Assembly (NCBI GenBank): GCA_018066285.1
Contig: JAGHRS010000063.1
Span: 1-32,759 of the forward strand
Direction: 5' to 3'
Length of the DNA: 32,759 bases
Origin: Candidatus Treponema caballi
Lineage (GTDB): Bacteria > Spirochaetota > Spirochaetia > Treponematales > Treponemataceae
The position numbers were made by a program, and so were the translations under genes. The notes beneath the pieces were generated by a model. The model was not told the DNA's origin. It worked only from the letters and a program-made list of their open reading frames with translations, and made no database searches. Numbering within the stretch: position 1 is the stretch's first letter; each line of letters begins with the position of its first letter. Positions 2,630 through 7,556 of this stretch are shown piece after piece.

Positions 2630-3441
2630 TCGCTTTTTTTGAACAGCTCTTTTCGTATGGATTCATCGTGCGCGCCATTATTGCAGGTGGGCTCATTTCA
2701 TTGTGTGCGTCACTTCTGGGCGTCACGCTCGTCTTAAAGCGCTACAGCATGATTGGCGACGGACTATCTCACGTGGGCTTCGGCACCATGGCGATTGCAC
2801 TCGCGTTCAACTGGGCGCCGCTCGCCGTCGCCATCCCGGTCTCAATACTCGCTGCTTTCCTGCTGCTTAGGGTAAGCACAAACTCAAACCTGAAAGGAGA
2901 CGCGGCCATTGCGCTCATCTCTTCCAGTGCGCTCGCAATCGGCATTCTGGTCACATCAGTTACGACGGGCCTCAACACGGATGTCACGAGCTACATGTTC
3001 GGCAGCATCCTTTCCATCAGCAAGACGGATGTCTGGCTCAGCGTAGGGCTCGCCGCGGTCGTCCTGACACTGTTCGTGCTGCTCTACAACAGGATTTTCC
3101 TAGTCACGTTCGACGAGGCTTTCGCTAAATCAAGCGGCATAAAAACGGGGCGCTACAACGCGCTCATCGCCATCCTTACGGCGCTCACCATCGTCATCGG
3201 CATGCGTCTCATGGGCGCCATGATGATCTCAAGCCTGATTGTCTTCCCTGCGCTTTCTTCAATGCGCGTGTTCAAGAGCTTCAGGAAAGTCGTCATCTGC
3301 TCAGGAATCCTGTCTGTCGTGTGCTTCTTTGCGGGAATAAGCGCGTCGTTCGCCTGGTCAACGCCGGCTGGCGCCAGCATCGTCATTGCGGACCTGATTG
3401 CGTTCCTCGTGTGCCTTGCGTACGGAAAAGTCAGAAAGTAG
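2626..3441 (+). CDS. znuB: Zinc ABC transporter membrane permease
   Basis: A 271-residue ABC-3 family permease with about eight hydrophobic segments, of normal length. The start at 2626 overlaps the znuC stop; a longer reading from 2557 would run through znuC and is rejected. Typical family features are the early LVLKRYSMIGDGLSHVGFG region, the DVTSYMFGSIL loop and GMRLMGAMMISSLIVFPAL near the C-terminal half, where the permease meets the ATPase. It should form the channel for zinc delivered by ZnuA. It is the last gene of the operon; the stop codon is directly followed by the structured element at 3441-3633. Confidence 0.88.
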   Translation: MIAFFEQLFSYGFIVRAIIAGGLISLCASLLGVTLVLKRYSMIGDGLSHVGFGTMAIALAFNWAPLAVAIPVSILAAFLLLRVSTNSNLKGDAAIALISSSALAIGILVTSVTTGLNTDVTSYMFGSILSISKTDVWLSVGLAAVVLTLFVLLYNRIFLVTFDEAFAKSSGIKTGRYNALIAILTALTIVIGMRLMGAMMISSLIVFPALSSMRVFKSFRKVVICSGILSVVCFFAGISASFAWSTPAGASIVIADLIAFLVCLAYGKVRK

Positions 3442-3633
3442 AAAATGCCATTTCTGGTCCCCTTTTTGCGCAAATTCGGCTCAGAGGGGACCTGCCCAAA
3501 GCAGCAAAATACCGTATTTGCTCTGATTTTGATGTCAGTTTCATGAAAAACGCTGCTTTTTCAATCAGAAATGGCACATTTTCAGGGAAAAAACAGCCTG
3601 ATTTGTCAGAACAAGCAAAAACGCAGGTCCCCT
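3441..3633. repeat. Non-coding region with nested, competing inverted repeats
   Basis: This stretch has no convincing gene but dense symmetry. GGTCCCC (3456-3462) can pair with GGGGACC (3486-3492), while AGGGGACCTG (3485-3494) can instead pair perfectly with CAGGTCCCCT (3624-3633); the two are mutually exclusive. GAAAATGCCATTTCTG (3441-3456) matches the complement of 3566-3583 apart from a 2-base insertion. A local hairpin lies at 3503-3522. It may be a REP- or MITE-like insertion, or a 3' regulatory structure of the znu mRNA. The GTCCCC core recurs in the palindrome at 5499-5525. Confidence 0.6.
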
Positions 3634-3717
3634 AAACGCGCTTTTCTGCCCTTTTGGGGGCCACTTTTCAAAAAATAAAGCATTTTCCCCAGGCAATAAA
3701 TACCTGAAAAGCAGGTC

Positions 3718-3850
3718 GCGTCAGGGATTGGAGTGGCGCGGAGCGTTCGGGAACAGGCGTCAGTCTGTTCTCGAATGGAGGGCGGCTGCCCGGAACCGCG
3801 GAAAGCCCGGCGGGCACGTCTGGCGCGACCGCGACGCCCGTGTTTTTTTT
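3718..3850 (+). repeat. Long copy A of the GCGTYAGG...RACGCCC element
   Basis: A 133-base GC-rich non-coding element set in AT-rich flanks. It begins GCGTCAGGGATTGGAGTGGC and ends GACGCCCG followed by a run of eight T. The outer stem pairs 3718-3722 with 3833-3837. Inside is an 11-bp stem (3746-3756 with 3765-3775, one G-T wobble) and small hairpins at 3780-3791 and 3805-3815. The minus-strand copy at 32605-32726 shares the opening, the GCCCGG core and the closing block. The T-run suggests a terminator or an RNA 3' end. Reading frames crossing it are spurious. Confidence 0.7.
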
Positions 3851-3853
3851 ATG

Positions 3854-3881
3854 TGCACATCCCGCTTTTTGCGTGTACAAT
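3854..3881 (+). promoter_or_regulatory. Possible promoter of the PPOX gene
   Basis: TGCACA (3854-3859), a 16-base spacer and TACAAT (3876-3881) lie just upstream of the AGGAG ribosome site and the ATG at 3899. The -35 box matches consensus at 4 of 6 positions, so support is moderate. Confidence 0.4.
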
Positions 3882-3898
3882 GGATGCAGGAGAACAAA

Positions 3899-4297
3899 AT
3901 GAAATCTGTCTATGAATTTGTGAAGAAATGCGGGACGTACTATCTTGCTACTGTGGAGGACGGGCAGCCGCGTGTGCGTCCGTTCGGTACCATCGATCTT
4001 TTTGAGGATAAGCTCTATATCCAGACGGGAAAAGTTAAGCCAGTTTCTAAGCAGCTGGCCGCAAATCCGCTTGCCGAGCTCTGCTGTTTTGACGGGGAGT
4101 CCGGCACATGGCTGCGTCTTGCAGGTGAGCTCGTGAATGATGACCGCATTGAGGCCAAGAAGCACATGCTCGACAGTTACCCTAACCTGCGCGGTATGTA
4201 TGATGAGAACGACGGCAACACACAGGTGCTCTATTTCAAGAATGCAACTGCAACGTTCTCAAGTTTTGCGGCTGCTCCGCGCGTCGTGAAGTTCTAG
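3899..4297 (+). CDS. PPOX-family flavin-binding protein
   Basis: A 132-residue single-domain protein of the pyridoxamine-5'-phosphate-oxidase-like split-barrel fold. It has the usual opening (TYYLATVEDGQPRVRPFG, residues 13-30), the strand KLYIQTGKVKPVSKQL and the closing NTQVLYFKNATATFSSF. These small proteins bind FMN or related flavins and often act as reductases of unknown substrate, including NimA-like proteins. The start at 3899 has AGGAG 6 bases upstream; longer readings from 3728 or 3733 would translate the non-coding repeat and are rejected. The Dabb gene starts 9 bases after its stop, so the two are probably co-transcribed. Substrate is unknown. Confidence 0.8.
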   Translation: MKSVYEFVKKCGTYYLATVEDGQPRVRPFGTIDLFEDKLYIQTGKVKPVSKQLAANPLAELCCFDGESGTWLRLAGELVNDDRIEAKKHMLDSYPNLRGMYDENDGNTQVLYFKNATATFSSFAAAPRVVKF

Positions 4298-4306
4298 GAG
4301 CGCACT

Positions 4307-4609
4307 ATGGTTAAGCACATTATTCTCTGGACGCTCAAGGATATGGGCGACGACGAAAAGAAAGCGGTCAAGGCCGGCATAAAGGAAGGACTTGAAGGCC
4401 TTAAGGGGCAGATTCCAGGGCTGGTGGATATAAAGGTGAACGCGGATGGCCGCCTCGCCTCATCAAATGCAGACCTGATGCTTGATTCAACGTTCGAGTC
4501 AGCAGAGGCGCTTGCCGGATACGCAAAGAACCCGGCACATGTTGCCGTTGCAGACAGTAAGGTCCGCCCGTTCACGGCAAGCAGAAGCTGCCTGGACTAC
4601 GAAGTGTAA
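4307..4609 (+). CDS. Dabb (stress-responsive A/B barrel) protein
   Basis: A 100-residue protein of the Dabb family, ferredoxin-like alpha/beta barrels that usually work as dimers. The family hallmarks are the opening MVKHIILWTLKD with its conserved His4, the IPGLVDIKV strand (about 38-46), the DLMLDSTFESAEALAGYAKNP region (about 57-77) and the HVAV motif followed by the C-terminal strand. GAGCG sits just before the ATG. It follows the PPOX gene by 9 bases, suggesting a two-gene transcript. Family members range from plant stress proteins to polyketide cyclases, so no precise function can be given. Confidence 0.75.
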   Translation: MVKHIILWTLKDMGDDEKKAVKAGIKEGLEGLKGQIPGLVDIKVNADGRLASSNADLMLDSTFESAEALAGYAKNPAHVAVADSKVRPFTASRSCLDYEV

Positions 4610-4645
4610 GCAGGCAAGACATAAGAATAGTGCCGAACGGGGCCA

Positions 4646-5926
4646 TCATGTCACCGCAAACGGCACGTGCACAATCTCAGTGCCTGCATCGATGCCGTAT
4701 GACACATTGTTCCTGTCGCCGCGGATTTCAGGATTGGTGATTGTCACCGTATCGTAGCGGCGGAAGGAGAAGAAGCCTTTCCGCTTTGCTACCGGATCGC
4801 CCTGTTTCGCGCTCACGGTGATGCGCTCTTTTCCCGTGCAGATGACGAAGCGGATGCGCCCCCCCTTATTCAACATGCCGTCGCTCACCACGCGGCCGGA
4901 AATCTCGCGAAGTGGCTTGCGGGTGGCGGCCGGTGTCTTCTCAGAAGCTGGTGCGCCAGACAGCACAACATAGCTCATCTTCACGGATTCGCGGTCAAGG
5001 CCGGCGCGCGCGGCAATTCCTGCGACTGGCTCGCAGGGAGTCCAGGTGACTTCGCCGTGGCAGGTCTGGTTTTCACCCGCAGTGATTGCAGGGCATCTGA
5101 AAGCGCCGGAAGCATTCCTGCAGGAAGCGCACGGAGCTTTCACGTCATAACCGCGCTCAAGCATGAGGTCGCGCACAGAAAGCAGGCTGCGGCTTGTTTC
5201 AAGAAGCGCCGGTTCACAGACAAGCATGAAGCCGCCCGGGGTCAGCGCACCAAGACACTTTTCAAGGAAGGCGGCGCGTTTTTCAAGGAAGCCGGCATCC
5301 CCTTTCCAAAGCTCGTTCAGCGCGTGGCTCATCACGATGATGTCGAAGCCGGCGGCCGATGAAAGCGTGCCGCGCTCAAAGTCACAGACTGCCGTCGTGA
5401 CCTGTACGCCGGGGAAATCGCGCTCAAAAAGCCTGCGTGCGCGGGAAAGCGACTTCTCGCTCTGGTCGAGCAGCGTCACGCTGATGGCGCAGTTTTTCTG
5501 AACCAGAGAACCGTCCCCTGGTTCACACGAAGCGAGCGCGTCCAGGCAGATGTCTGCCACAGCGGCGCACGCAGGCCCCGGACCGGAACCCAGGTCAAGG
5601 ATGCGGAGCGGGCGGCTTTCGCGCGCGGCGGCTTCGCACAAGGCAGCAATCTCAGAGCGCACACTCAGCGCGGCGTAACTTACCTGCAGGTACGAGACCG
5701 GCCAGTAGTACAGAAGATACGCACCGAGATATGCTTTATCTTCCATGTAGTTGACGCCGATTAAATCGCGCTTTCCGGTAAGGCCGCGCTGCAGCGACAG
5801 CAGTGAAGAAGAAACTGATTTGTATTCTTTGTCTAAAAGAAAAGCGCCACTTTCCTTCTGCTTCCACAGGGAAACAAGGCTCGGAATGTGGCGCTCAAGA
5901 TGTGATTCAGAAAATGACGCTTTCAT
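4646..5926 (-). CDS. Rsm22-like SAM-dependent methyltransferase
   Basis: A 426-residue class I methyltransferase. The SAM-binding motif is ILDLGSGPGP (109-118), the acidic end of strand 2 is LLDQSEKS (152-159), followed by SHALNELW (200-207) and CEPALLETSRSLLSVRDLML (237-256). A cysteine cluster C266, C269, C278, C289 resembles the Rsm22 metal-binding signature, which points to a ribosome-associated methyltransferase-like protein. A C-terminal beta-rich domain (about 335-426) is extra. Residues about 133-146, between the first helix and second strand, are encoded by a GTCCCC palindrome and look like an in-frame insertion. It converges with the Dabb gene. The family is fairly clear; the RNA substrate is not. 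Confidence 0.7.
   Translation of the reverse strand: MKASFSESHLERHIPSLVSLWKQKESGAFLLDKEYKSVSSSLLSLQRGLTGKRDLIGVNYMEDKAYLGAYLLYYWPVSYLQVSYAALSVRSEIAALCEAAARESRPLRILDLGSGPGPACAAVADICLDALASCEPGDGSLVQKNCAISVTLLDQSEKSLSRARRLFERDFPGVQVTTAVCDFERGTLSSAAGFDIIVMSHALNELWKGDAGFLEKRAAFLEKCLGALTPGGFMLVCEPALLETSRSLLSVRDLMLERGYDVKAPCASCRNASGAFRCPAITAGENQTCHGEVTWTPCEPVAGIAARAGLDRESVKMSYVVLSGAPASEKTPAATRKPLREISGRVVSDGMLNKGGRIRFVICTGKERITVSAKQGDPVAKRKGFFSFRRYDTVTITNPEIRGDRNNVSYGIDAGTEIVHVPFAVT
5499..5525. repeat. REP-like GTCCCC palindrome inside a gene
   Basis: Arms TGAACCAG (5499-5506) and CTGGTTCA (5518-5525) flank AGAACCGTCCC. The palindrome lies in frame in the Rsm22-like gene and encodes part of EPGDGSLVQ. 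Short palindromes with a GTCCCC core are a common REP/MITE style in bacteria with REP-associated transposases. No transposase is in this window. Confidence 0.55.
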
Positions 5927-5950
5927 CAGAACCAGTCAATCTGCCCTGTC

Positions 5951-6943
5951 TCAGCCCATTCTGAACACAAAATCGCTGAAATCAAGTTCACCGAGTCCCT
6001 CAATCCACACTTTGACAGTCTGAGGCTTTCCGTTTACAGAACTTGAATACCAGATATGAATGGTACCAGCTTCCTTTGTCTTGAGGATATATTCTCCGCT
6101 GACGCCATCATCATAAAAGTTTGATTTTGCAGTCTTCTTGAGCATGTAAAAATCCTTGCTGCTCACCGTCAGGCGGATCACATCCGTCGTCTGATCATCA
6201 GAACCCTCAGGATAATACGTAAGCTCAATCATAGATGATGAAACAGAAAGCAGCGCCTCCTGCTCATTTCCTGAATACCAGGCTTTATGCGCAACAAACG
6301 ATGGGCTTGGAACAGTGGTCTTCGCATATTTTGAAGCATTGACTGCATCATATTTCTGATAGAGCAGGCCGCAGTCACCAGTCTTTGAAGCAGAAGTGAT
6401 TTTCTGGCGGGCAGTCCGTAAATACGCGCTGCCTTCTCCAGCTGGAGAAGATGCAGAACTGCGACCAGCAGAAGCACGTGCTGTCTGCGCCGCCGGCTGC
6501 GATGCAGGCTCATCGTATGAATCGTCGTACTCTTCACCGTTCTGGTATGCCTCGAAGGCAGCAACAAGCTGGGATGAGTACTTTTCCATTACCGCATAAT
6601 CAGCAGAATTGATGCGGGCCGTATATGCAGCTACAGGATTTACCCCCATAGACTTGAACAGGGAAACCGTCTGAGGGTCCATCTGGCTTTCAGCAGAAAC
6701 GGCAATCATGCCGAGTGTCAGAGCCGAATACTTCTGGACGCGGTCTGGACCGCTTATGCCGTATTTCTGAAGAATTGAATCCACATCAGACTCAGAGGAC
6801 GCATCTTCCAGATTGTCCACTATTCTGGCATAGTTCTTTGCAAAGTTCTGAACATCAGAATCTGTCAGATTTGTGCTGGCAGGTTCTGCAATTAAAAAGG
6901 ACATCGTAAGTAGAACACAAATAAACGCTATACACTTTTTCAT
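5951..6943 (-). CDS. Secreted protein of unknown function
   Basis: A 330-residue protein. The start at 6943 is chosen because it gives a classical signal peptide (MKKCIAFICVLLTMSFLIAE) and has AGGAG upstream; a reading from 7060 would overlap the HD gene and bury the signal. The mature part has an Ala/Ser/Asp-rich helical region (about 25-150), a low-complexity linker rich in Ala, Ser and Gln (about 150-180) and a beta-rich C-terminal half (about 205-330) ending FSDFVFRMG. No catalytic motif is recognised. It is probably periplasmic or outer-membrane associated. It starts 46 bases after the HD gene on the same strand and may share its transcript. Confidence 0.7.
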   Translation of the reverse strand: MKKCIAFICVLLTMSFLIAEPASTNLTDSDVQNFAKNYARIVDNLEDASSESDVDSILQKYGISGPDRVQKYSALTLGMIAVSAESQMDPQTVSLFKSMGVNPVAAYTARINSADYAVMEKYSSQLVAAFEAYQNGEEYDDSYDEPASQPAAQTARASAGRSSASSPAGEGSAYLRTARQKITSASKTGDCGLLYQKYDAVNASKYAKTTVPSPSFVAHKAWYSGNEQEALLSVSSSMIELTYYPEGSDDQTTDVIRLTVSSKDFYMLKKTAKSNFYDDGVSGEYILKTKEAGTIHIWYSSSVNGKPQTVKVWIEGLGELDFSDFVFRMG

Positions 6944-6989
6944 AAAAAACTCCTGAAACAGTCTCTCTCCAATAAGCACTATAGCGCAC

Positions 6990-7556
6990 TCACACGCCGA
7001 TTTCTTCGTGCTTTGAACGCATGGCGAGGATGCAGTCCTGAATGACTTCGTTAAGCTCAACGCCCATCATTTCAGCGCCCTGACGGATAACGTCACGGCT
7101 GCAGCCTGCGGCAAACGCCTTATCCTTGAACTTCTTGGTAACTGACTTAAGCTCCATGTCCATGACAGACTTTGACGGACGGGCCATGGCGCAGGCGAAG
7201 ATAAGGCCGGTAAGCTCATCCACCGTAAACAGGACCTTCTCCATTTTGTGCTCAGGCTTCACATCGTTACAAAGGCCATATCCATGTGACTGGACGGCGT
7301 GGATGAGCGCGTCGTCAATGTCCGGGTAGTCTGCCTTTTCAGCGTTGAACAGGTCTACACAGGCGATGCAGTGCGCATCCGGGCTTTTCTCAAAGTCAAT
7401 GTCGTGCAGAATGCCGACGCTCTCCCAGTAGTCCGGGTCCTCACCGTACTTTTCCGCAAAATAGCGCATGGCAACGCCGACTGTCTTGCAGTGGCGGAGC
7501 AGCGTTTCTCCCGTAACGTATTTAGAAAGCAGATCAAGTGCTGCAGATGGTTTCAT
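6990..7556 (-). CDS. HD-domain phosphohydrolase
   Basis: A 188-residue HD-superfamily metal-dependent phosphohydrolase. The ligands appear in order as H22, the HD pair H51-D52 (GILHDID), H86 and H91 (HAVQSHGYG) and a later D113 (TVDELTG). The ATG at 7556 is chosen because GGAGG lies 8 bases upstream; a longer start at 7571 would be a TTG that overlaps that ribosome site. Short proteins of this type act on nucleotides or other small phosphates, and the substrate cannot be read from sequence. The gene is divergent from rsmG. Confidence 0.8.
   Translation of the reverse strand: MKPSAALDLLSKYVTGETLLRHCKTVGVAMRYFAEKYGEDPDYWESVGILHDIDFEKSPDAHCIACVDLFNAEKADYPDIDDALIHAVQSHGYGLCNDVKPEHKMEKVLFTVDELTGLIFACAMARPSKSVMDMELKSVTKKFKDKAFAAGCSRDVIRQGAEMMGVELNEVIQDCILAMRSKHEEIGV

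Follow-up and report, generated by a model that had tools for sequence, protein, structure and literature searches.

An in-frame palindrome in a Treponema methyltransferase gene as one of a REP-type repeat family with a probable transposase partner

Short palindromic repeats of several described kinds come close to the element reported here. In the parts of the literature drawn on in this work, REPs usually number more than 100 copies (PMC2817692), and the REP transposases of class 2 carry the signature Y---NP (PMC6006769). The CGTC type of REP is described with a terminal CGTC tag, a stem of 8-9 bp, a loop of 4-5 bp and a CCA tail, and this type, including the intragenic RPE-4 and RPE-6, is given in those parts as being without a dedicated or flanked transposase (PMC3733652). 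Intragenic GTAG and CGTC REPs occur singly or doubled, with DNA polymerase I among their hosts (PMC3733652). The Rickettsia palindromic elements (RPE) are in-frame palindromes in many unrelated proteins and are often doubled (PMC3733652). TIRtrons (TIRYT) consist of GGGGWSAS inverted repeats beside Y1 transposases (PMC3733652) and are related to subclass 2.1 of TnpAREP, for which a C-terminal HTH extension is given (PMC6006769).

The palindrome that we followed up lies in a window of 32,759 nucleotides, the whole stretch of Candidatus Treponema caballi DNA that was analysed (Table 1; contigs of the genome are numbered with a prefixed C). It has 8-bp arms and an 11-base loop and sits within the coding sequence of an Rsm22-like methyltransferase, whose residues 135-143, EPGDGSLVQ, it encodes, just as a sequence-only reading of the window had claimed. 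An AlphaFold2 model of the protein (38 sequences as input, mean pLDDT 89.7) agrees with the further claim that this stretch separates the first SAM-site helix (residues 118-133) from the next strand (residues 148-154); residues 141-143 form the sole run of at least three residues with a pLDDT below 50 in the model. The alignment with homologues that the same reading had proposed was made, and the nine residues were missing from 16 of 16 orthologues in a first alignment. GDGS was found in this loop in 0 of 78 deduplicated homologue ORFs, one homologue having GDGS elsewhere.

Table 1. Features of the palindrome, its host gene and the genes that contain in-frame copies
Feature	Position in window	Strand	Copies	Remarks
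27-bp REP-type palindrome TGAACCAG-AGAACCGTCCC-CTGGTTCA	5499..5525	.		gene-sense strand TGAACCAGGGGACGGTTCTCTGGTTCA
Conserved core AGAACCGTCCCC	5507..5518	+	63	exact copies across the genome
Rsm22-like SAM-dependent methyltransferase CDS	4646..5926	-	1	426 aa; Pfam Rsm22 E 7e-8; copy in loop after first SAM-site helix
DNA polymerase I (polA)			2	linker joining two exonuclease domains
Methionine synthase (metH)			2	linker past homocysteine domain
Alpha-L-rhamnosidase			2	PDB 6i60 is without a 14-residue stretch there
Alpha-galactosidase			3	
PrmC (prmC)			1	
Phosphodiesterase			1	
TetR regulator			5	most copies in one gene
P-type ATPase			2	between two segments hydrophobic by eye
Nuclease			2	past putative signal peptide
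Chromate transporter			3	at protein ends
Glucosaminidase			2 + 1 reversed	lipoprotein-like start; reversed copy at C1:5224

The loop between the two motifs that bound this region measured 15 or about 20-25 residues in most of 72 homologues, the longest being 40 and 50 residues in two of them. By hand count the spacing in the query is 34 residues, or 25 once the nine of EPGDGSLVQ are subtracted. The loop varies naturally in length. No orthologue above about 51% identity was present in the genomes searched, and a search of the genus (seven genomes, this one included) returned no congeneric orthologue from which an exact empty site could be read. With no closer orthologue than this, the exact empty site and the length of the insert at this gene are inferred, and the insertion was presumably of exactly 27 bp. 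The methyltransferase would presumably still work with the insert in place. The same genome encodes a second, distant Rsm22-like protein (C25:10441-11355, 25% identity), and three of six congeners have an Rsm22-like match, in each case only at the level of the distant paralogue, near 25%.

Taken alone, the palindrome is not improbable, and its significance derives from its recurrence across the genome. A CDS of such composition is expected to hold 0.43 palindromes with 8-bp arms and a loop of 3-15 bases, and at least one occurred in 28% of 300 first-order simulations of the methyltransferase CDS. These figures, together with the differing loop lengths among the homologues, speak for a palindrome that belongs natively to a loop of variable length and is self-complementary by coincidence. 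The genome-wide counts go strongly the other way. Allowing up to three mismatches, the 27-mer was found at 12 places in the genome, and the reversed-pattern control at none; besides the locus itself, two matches were exact and nine carried one to three mismatches. The exact core copies lie on 11 contigs (0 for the reversed control) and reach their peak density on C26, where 27 of the 63 fall between 1.5 and 25.7 kb. Many have poor stems, and two of the 63 look like native codons (NFACT, C5:31465; ABC transporter, C42:18883). Relatives hold between none and four copies each: core matches occurred in 25 of 117 other genomes of the taxonomic family, with a maximum of four per genome and a total of 34 against 15 for the reversed pattern, and among six congeners five had none and one had a single match. 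The palindrome is hence not unique in its genome, and this recurrence refutes a chance palindrome at 5499-5525; that a native loop is self-complementary by coincidence is, in our estimation, scarcely credible.

One part of the sequence-only reading did not survive. It had taken the core to recur at 3456-3633, where the three GTCCCC sites are without the AGAACC part and are a different thing. We rejected these sites as instances of the same element; with up to two mismatches allowed, the 12-bp core was found nowhere else in the window. In the window as a whole, GTCCCC occurs 4 times against an expectation of 6.4, which is no excess. The site at 3627 falls within a separate intergenic repeat (window 3602-3686), which recurs at three further genomic places with 73-81% identity, is without AGAACC, and in two of its other copies contains a GGTCCCC...GGGGACC inverted repeat.

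ORFs drawn over the 63 cores and matched to Pfam gave 27 in-frame copies in 12 genes. The absence of the element from homologues was checked for four of these, the methyltransferase, metH, the rhamnosidase and the P-type ATPase. In the ATPase the stretch measures 70 residues, compared to 41-68 in 23 of 23 relatives. The metH linker in some of five readable congeners is similar in length without the element; for metH, then, the presence of the element is established and a net gain in length is not. The reversed copy at C1:5224, in a lipoprotein-like linker, has two sense copies some 60 bp away and is itself within a different palindrome, GGGGAC...GTCCCC.

A REP-associated transposase gene, whose presence the sequence-only reading had proposed to look for, was found within the densest cluster of cores. 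It is the single Y1_Tnp gene found in the genome and encodes a RAYT of 247 aa with a C-terminal extension (C26:13814-14557); cores flank it upstream (13690) and downstream (14630). Its two catalytic-type His (HxH) and the Y---NP signature are conserved without exception across eight aligned RAYTs. Between these His this RAYT has Ala, and the class residues given at that place in the parts of PMC6006769 used here are different from Ala, which leaves the activity of this RAYT uncertain. PF01797 had no match in the six congeners. Since these congeners are without PF01797, and five of them have no core and the sixth has one, the element and the transposase were probably gained together. The presence of the pair in this species and its absence from the six congeners, a single core match in one of them apart, make a recent acquisition probable as judged from these genomes. 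Absence from homologues, copy number and transposase gene together support the reading of a mobile REP-like element: the palindrome is a copy of a REP-type non-autonomous element, very probably spread by a single RAYT/TIRYT-like HUH tyrosine transposase and tolerated in loops. The RAYT would have moved the copies by transposition.

Related RAYT loci in other genomes were compared next to this one. The RAYT of Acetoanaerobium noterae is 44% identical over residues 1-144 and is flanked by AGAACCGTCCC. The stem of the core there is AATCA/TGATT in most copies; it differs from the stem here, with pairing restored. The core is thus common to both phyla, and the two sides of the stem differ between them. 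Of the 29 A. noterae cores, 27 are gathered in an 81-kb stretch next to the RAYT gene (NZ_CP154629.1, 341965-423185), which amounts to 3.1% of the record, and 28 are outside any open frame of at least 100 codons, unlike the Treponema copies. Such clustering would fit a repeat that spreads largely in its own neighbourhood. The record NZ_CP154629.1, at 2.63 Mb, is labelled a plasmid and is chromosome-sized. The RAYT of Sporomusa termitida pSPTER (19838-36326) is equally similar (43.7%) but is accompanied by GGGGTCAGGCCT repeats; likeness of the protein therefore does not fix the core. The GGGGTCAGGCCT repeats of pSPTER are in inverted orientation and represent another variant of the GGGG motif. 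Among the matches listed, GGGGACGG, GGGGACAG or GGGGTCAG occurred, as a raw count, at 14 of 19 other RAYT loci of the phylum, and none of the three occurred among the matches listed for the remaining five.

The Treponema family is of a known kind, being RPE-like in its working, REPtron-like in its transposase and TIRtron-like in a motif that is off consensus. As a palindrome of 27 bp it falls within the 20-40 bp of high-copy REPs, its 63 core copies being below the usual number of more than 100, and it has a flanked HUH Y1 transposase with Y---NP and an Ala between the His. With the RPE, as described in PMC3733652, it shares short palindromes in frame in unrelated proteins, often doubled, and the element here is in frame in conserved genes whose homologues, where checked, are without it. 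It differs from those elements in having a RAYT in the cluster, another core and a nearly uniform orientation in coding regions; the likeness is one of working and not of sequence kinship. The likeness to TIRtrons comprises a Y1 transposase with Y---NP and grouped flanking repeats that start with GGGG. The motif here is, however, GGGGACGG, with G for A at position 7, and thus departs from GGGGWSAS; many of the repeats are moreover intragenic. Like the intragenic GTAG and CGTC REPs, the family occurs in coding regions singly or doubled, with DNA polymerase I as a host common to both, but it has no terminal GTAG or CGTC tag, and the passages of PMC3733652 drawn on here mention no orientation or frame bias for those REPs. 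Assignment to the GTAG REPs was rejected, as there is no GTAG at the hairpin end and inspection of the flanks of the 63 cores revealed no shared GTAG beside the stems. Assignment to the CGTC REPs was likewise rejected, given that CGTC is in the loop and not at the end and that repeats lie on either side of a RAYT gene. A literature search, judged by titles, found no description of the core in print, and nothing relevant to a RAYT or REP family in Treponema was among the matches listed. The points that distinguish the family are its transposase partner, a core found across phyla with altered stems, and the marked orientation bias of its coding copies.

This bias was pronounced. GGGGACGGTTCT is on the sense strand in 26 of the 27 coding copies, C1:5224 being the exception, compared to 9 against 8 of the 17 intergenic copies between two same-strand genes (Fisher P = 0.001 for coding versus co-directional intergenic), and the majority orientation is identical in 12 of 12 genes. 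On C26 the orientation of the copies switches with the gene strand within a few kb, for which reason the direction of replication was set aside as the cause. Stop codons do not explain the bias either, since frames are open about equally in both orientations: the gene-sense frames are open in 45, 57 and 37 of 60 copies (139/180; the 57 belong to the PGDGSLV frame), and those of the opposite orientation in 51, 50 and 33 (134/180). The palindromes might be an RNA or DNA signal kept by the host, such as an attenuator or a nucleoid or processing site, and not selfish at all. The gene-sense RNA folds strongly (-16.6 kcal/mol, z -3.9) and the coding copies share one orientation, as such a signal would have it. 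We nonetheless regard a host signal as very improbable, for the copies are spread over unrelated genes, each of six congeners has at most one core match, orientation between genes is unbiased, and the window from 3000 to 7500 has no Rfam match.

The reading frame is biased as well. Most coding copies read as (P)GDGS, and in 10 of 12 genes the GDGS frame prevails (P = 0.0005 relative to one third; P ~0.003, by hand arithmetic, against 57/139 open frames). Because this frame is also the one most often open (57/60), part of its excess is due to stops. Neighbouring copies were spaced by a multiple of three in 12 of 13 coding cases versus 4 of 12 non-coding cases (P = 0.004), and in 12 of 14 coding cases if the reversed copy is counted (P = 0.014). 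These observations bear on the main rival for the orientation bias, in which insertion coupled to transcription targets exposed non-template DNA and no selection on the peptide is needed. The uniformity of the coding copies suits this proposal, and so does the way in which orientation tracks gene strand on C26, which makes replication direction alone insufficient. It is at odds with the 9 to 8 split of the co-directional intergenic copies, for which transcription is also probable, and with the bias in reading frame, itself partly the work of stops. On balance we judge transcription-coupled insertion to be rather unlikely as the source of the bias. The data suggest instead that selection at the level of the peptide decides which insertions persist and so would cause the bias.

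The coding class behind these counts was assigned by hand. The two cores that look like native codons were left out, and C1:5224, absent from the coding set of 26 copies, was added for the count of 27. The coding class excluded copies close to the end of a gene and copies in ORFs lacking a family match; examples are those in the aldehyde dehydrogenase, at the 5' ends of the GNAT and ArsR-like genes, in the last residues of the LRR protein and in the ORFs at C1:34182 and C7:6916. From the remaining copies, the 17 between same-strand genes were the only ones scored for orientation. Gene calls for the intergenic set came from a custom codon-usage script and not from a standard gene finder, and the window itself was outside its scope. 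Two cores beside the RAYT gene, which the script had missed, were excluded from the intergenic set by hand, and the start of the glucosaminidase was set by hand before its copies, overruling the script, on account of the signal peptide. The copy at C26:20136 was counted both as coding and in one non-coding spacing, and the frame-opening count covers 60 of 61 copies, one at a contig end being left out. The P values serve as guides, given that copies in tandem depend on one another and that the classes were assigned manually.

In the mechanism that we propose, a unit of about 27 bp would insert at loops and linkers, with up to five copies accumulating per gene. With 27 divisible by three and, when GGGGACGGTTCT is on the sense strand, 57 of 60 copies free of stops in the PGDGSLV frame, insertions into tolerant loops may persist as short peptides rich in Gly, Asp and Ser. 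On the simplest reading, insertion would happen both ways, and the survivors would be those that yield the flexible Gly/Asp/Ser peptide. A bolder proposal, that the REP family has by now become compatible with coding and serves as a portable flexible linker spreading from protein to protein, with the repeat population driven by the transposase and shaped by selection on the peptide, is offered tentatively and with less than even confidence. The family presents a self-contained case in which proteins of housekeeping and metabolism repeatedly receive the same peptide from a palindrome linked to a transposase, and its orientation and frame statistics help to tell insertion bias from selection at the protein level. 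If confirmed, the family would tie a RAYT to intragenic palindromes, as opposed to the CGTC type, which the parts of PMC3733652 used here give as lacking a dedicated transposase, and it would constitute a natural experiment on the entry of new loops and linkers into proteins.
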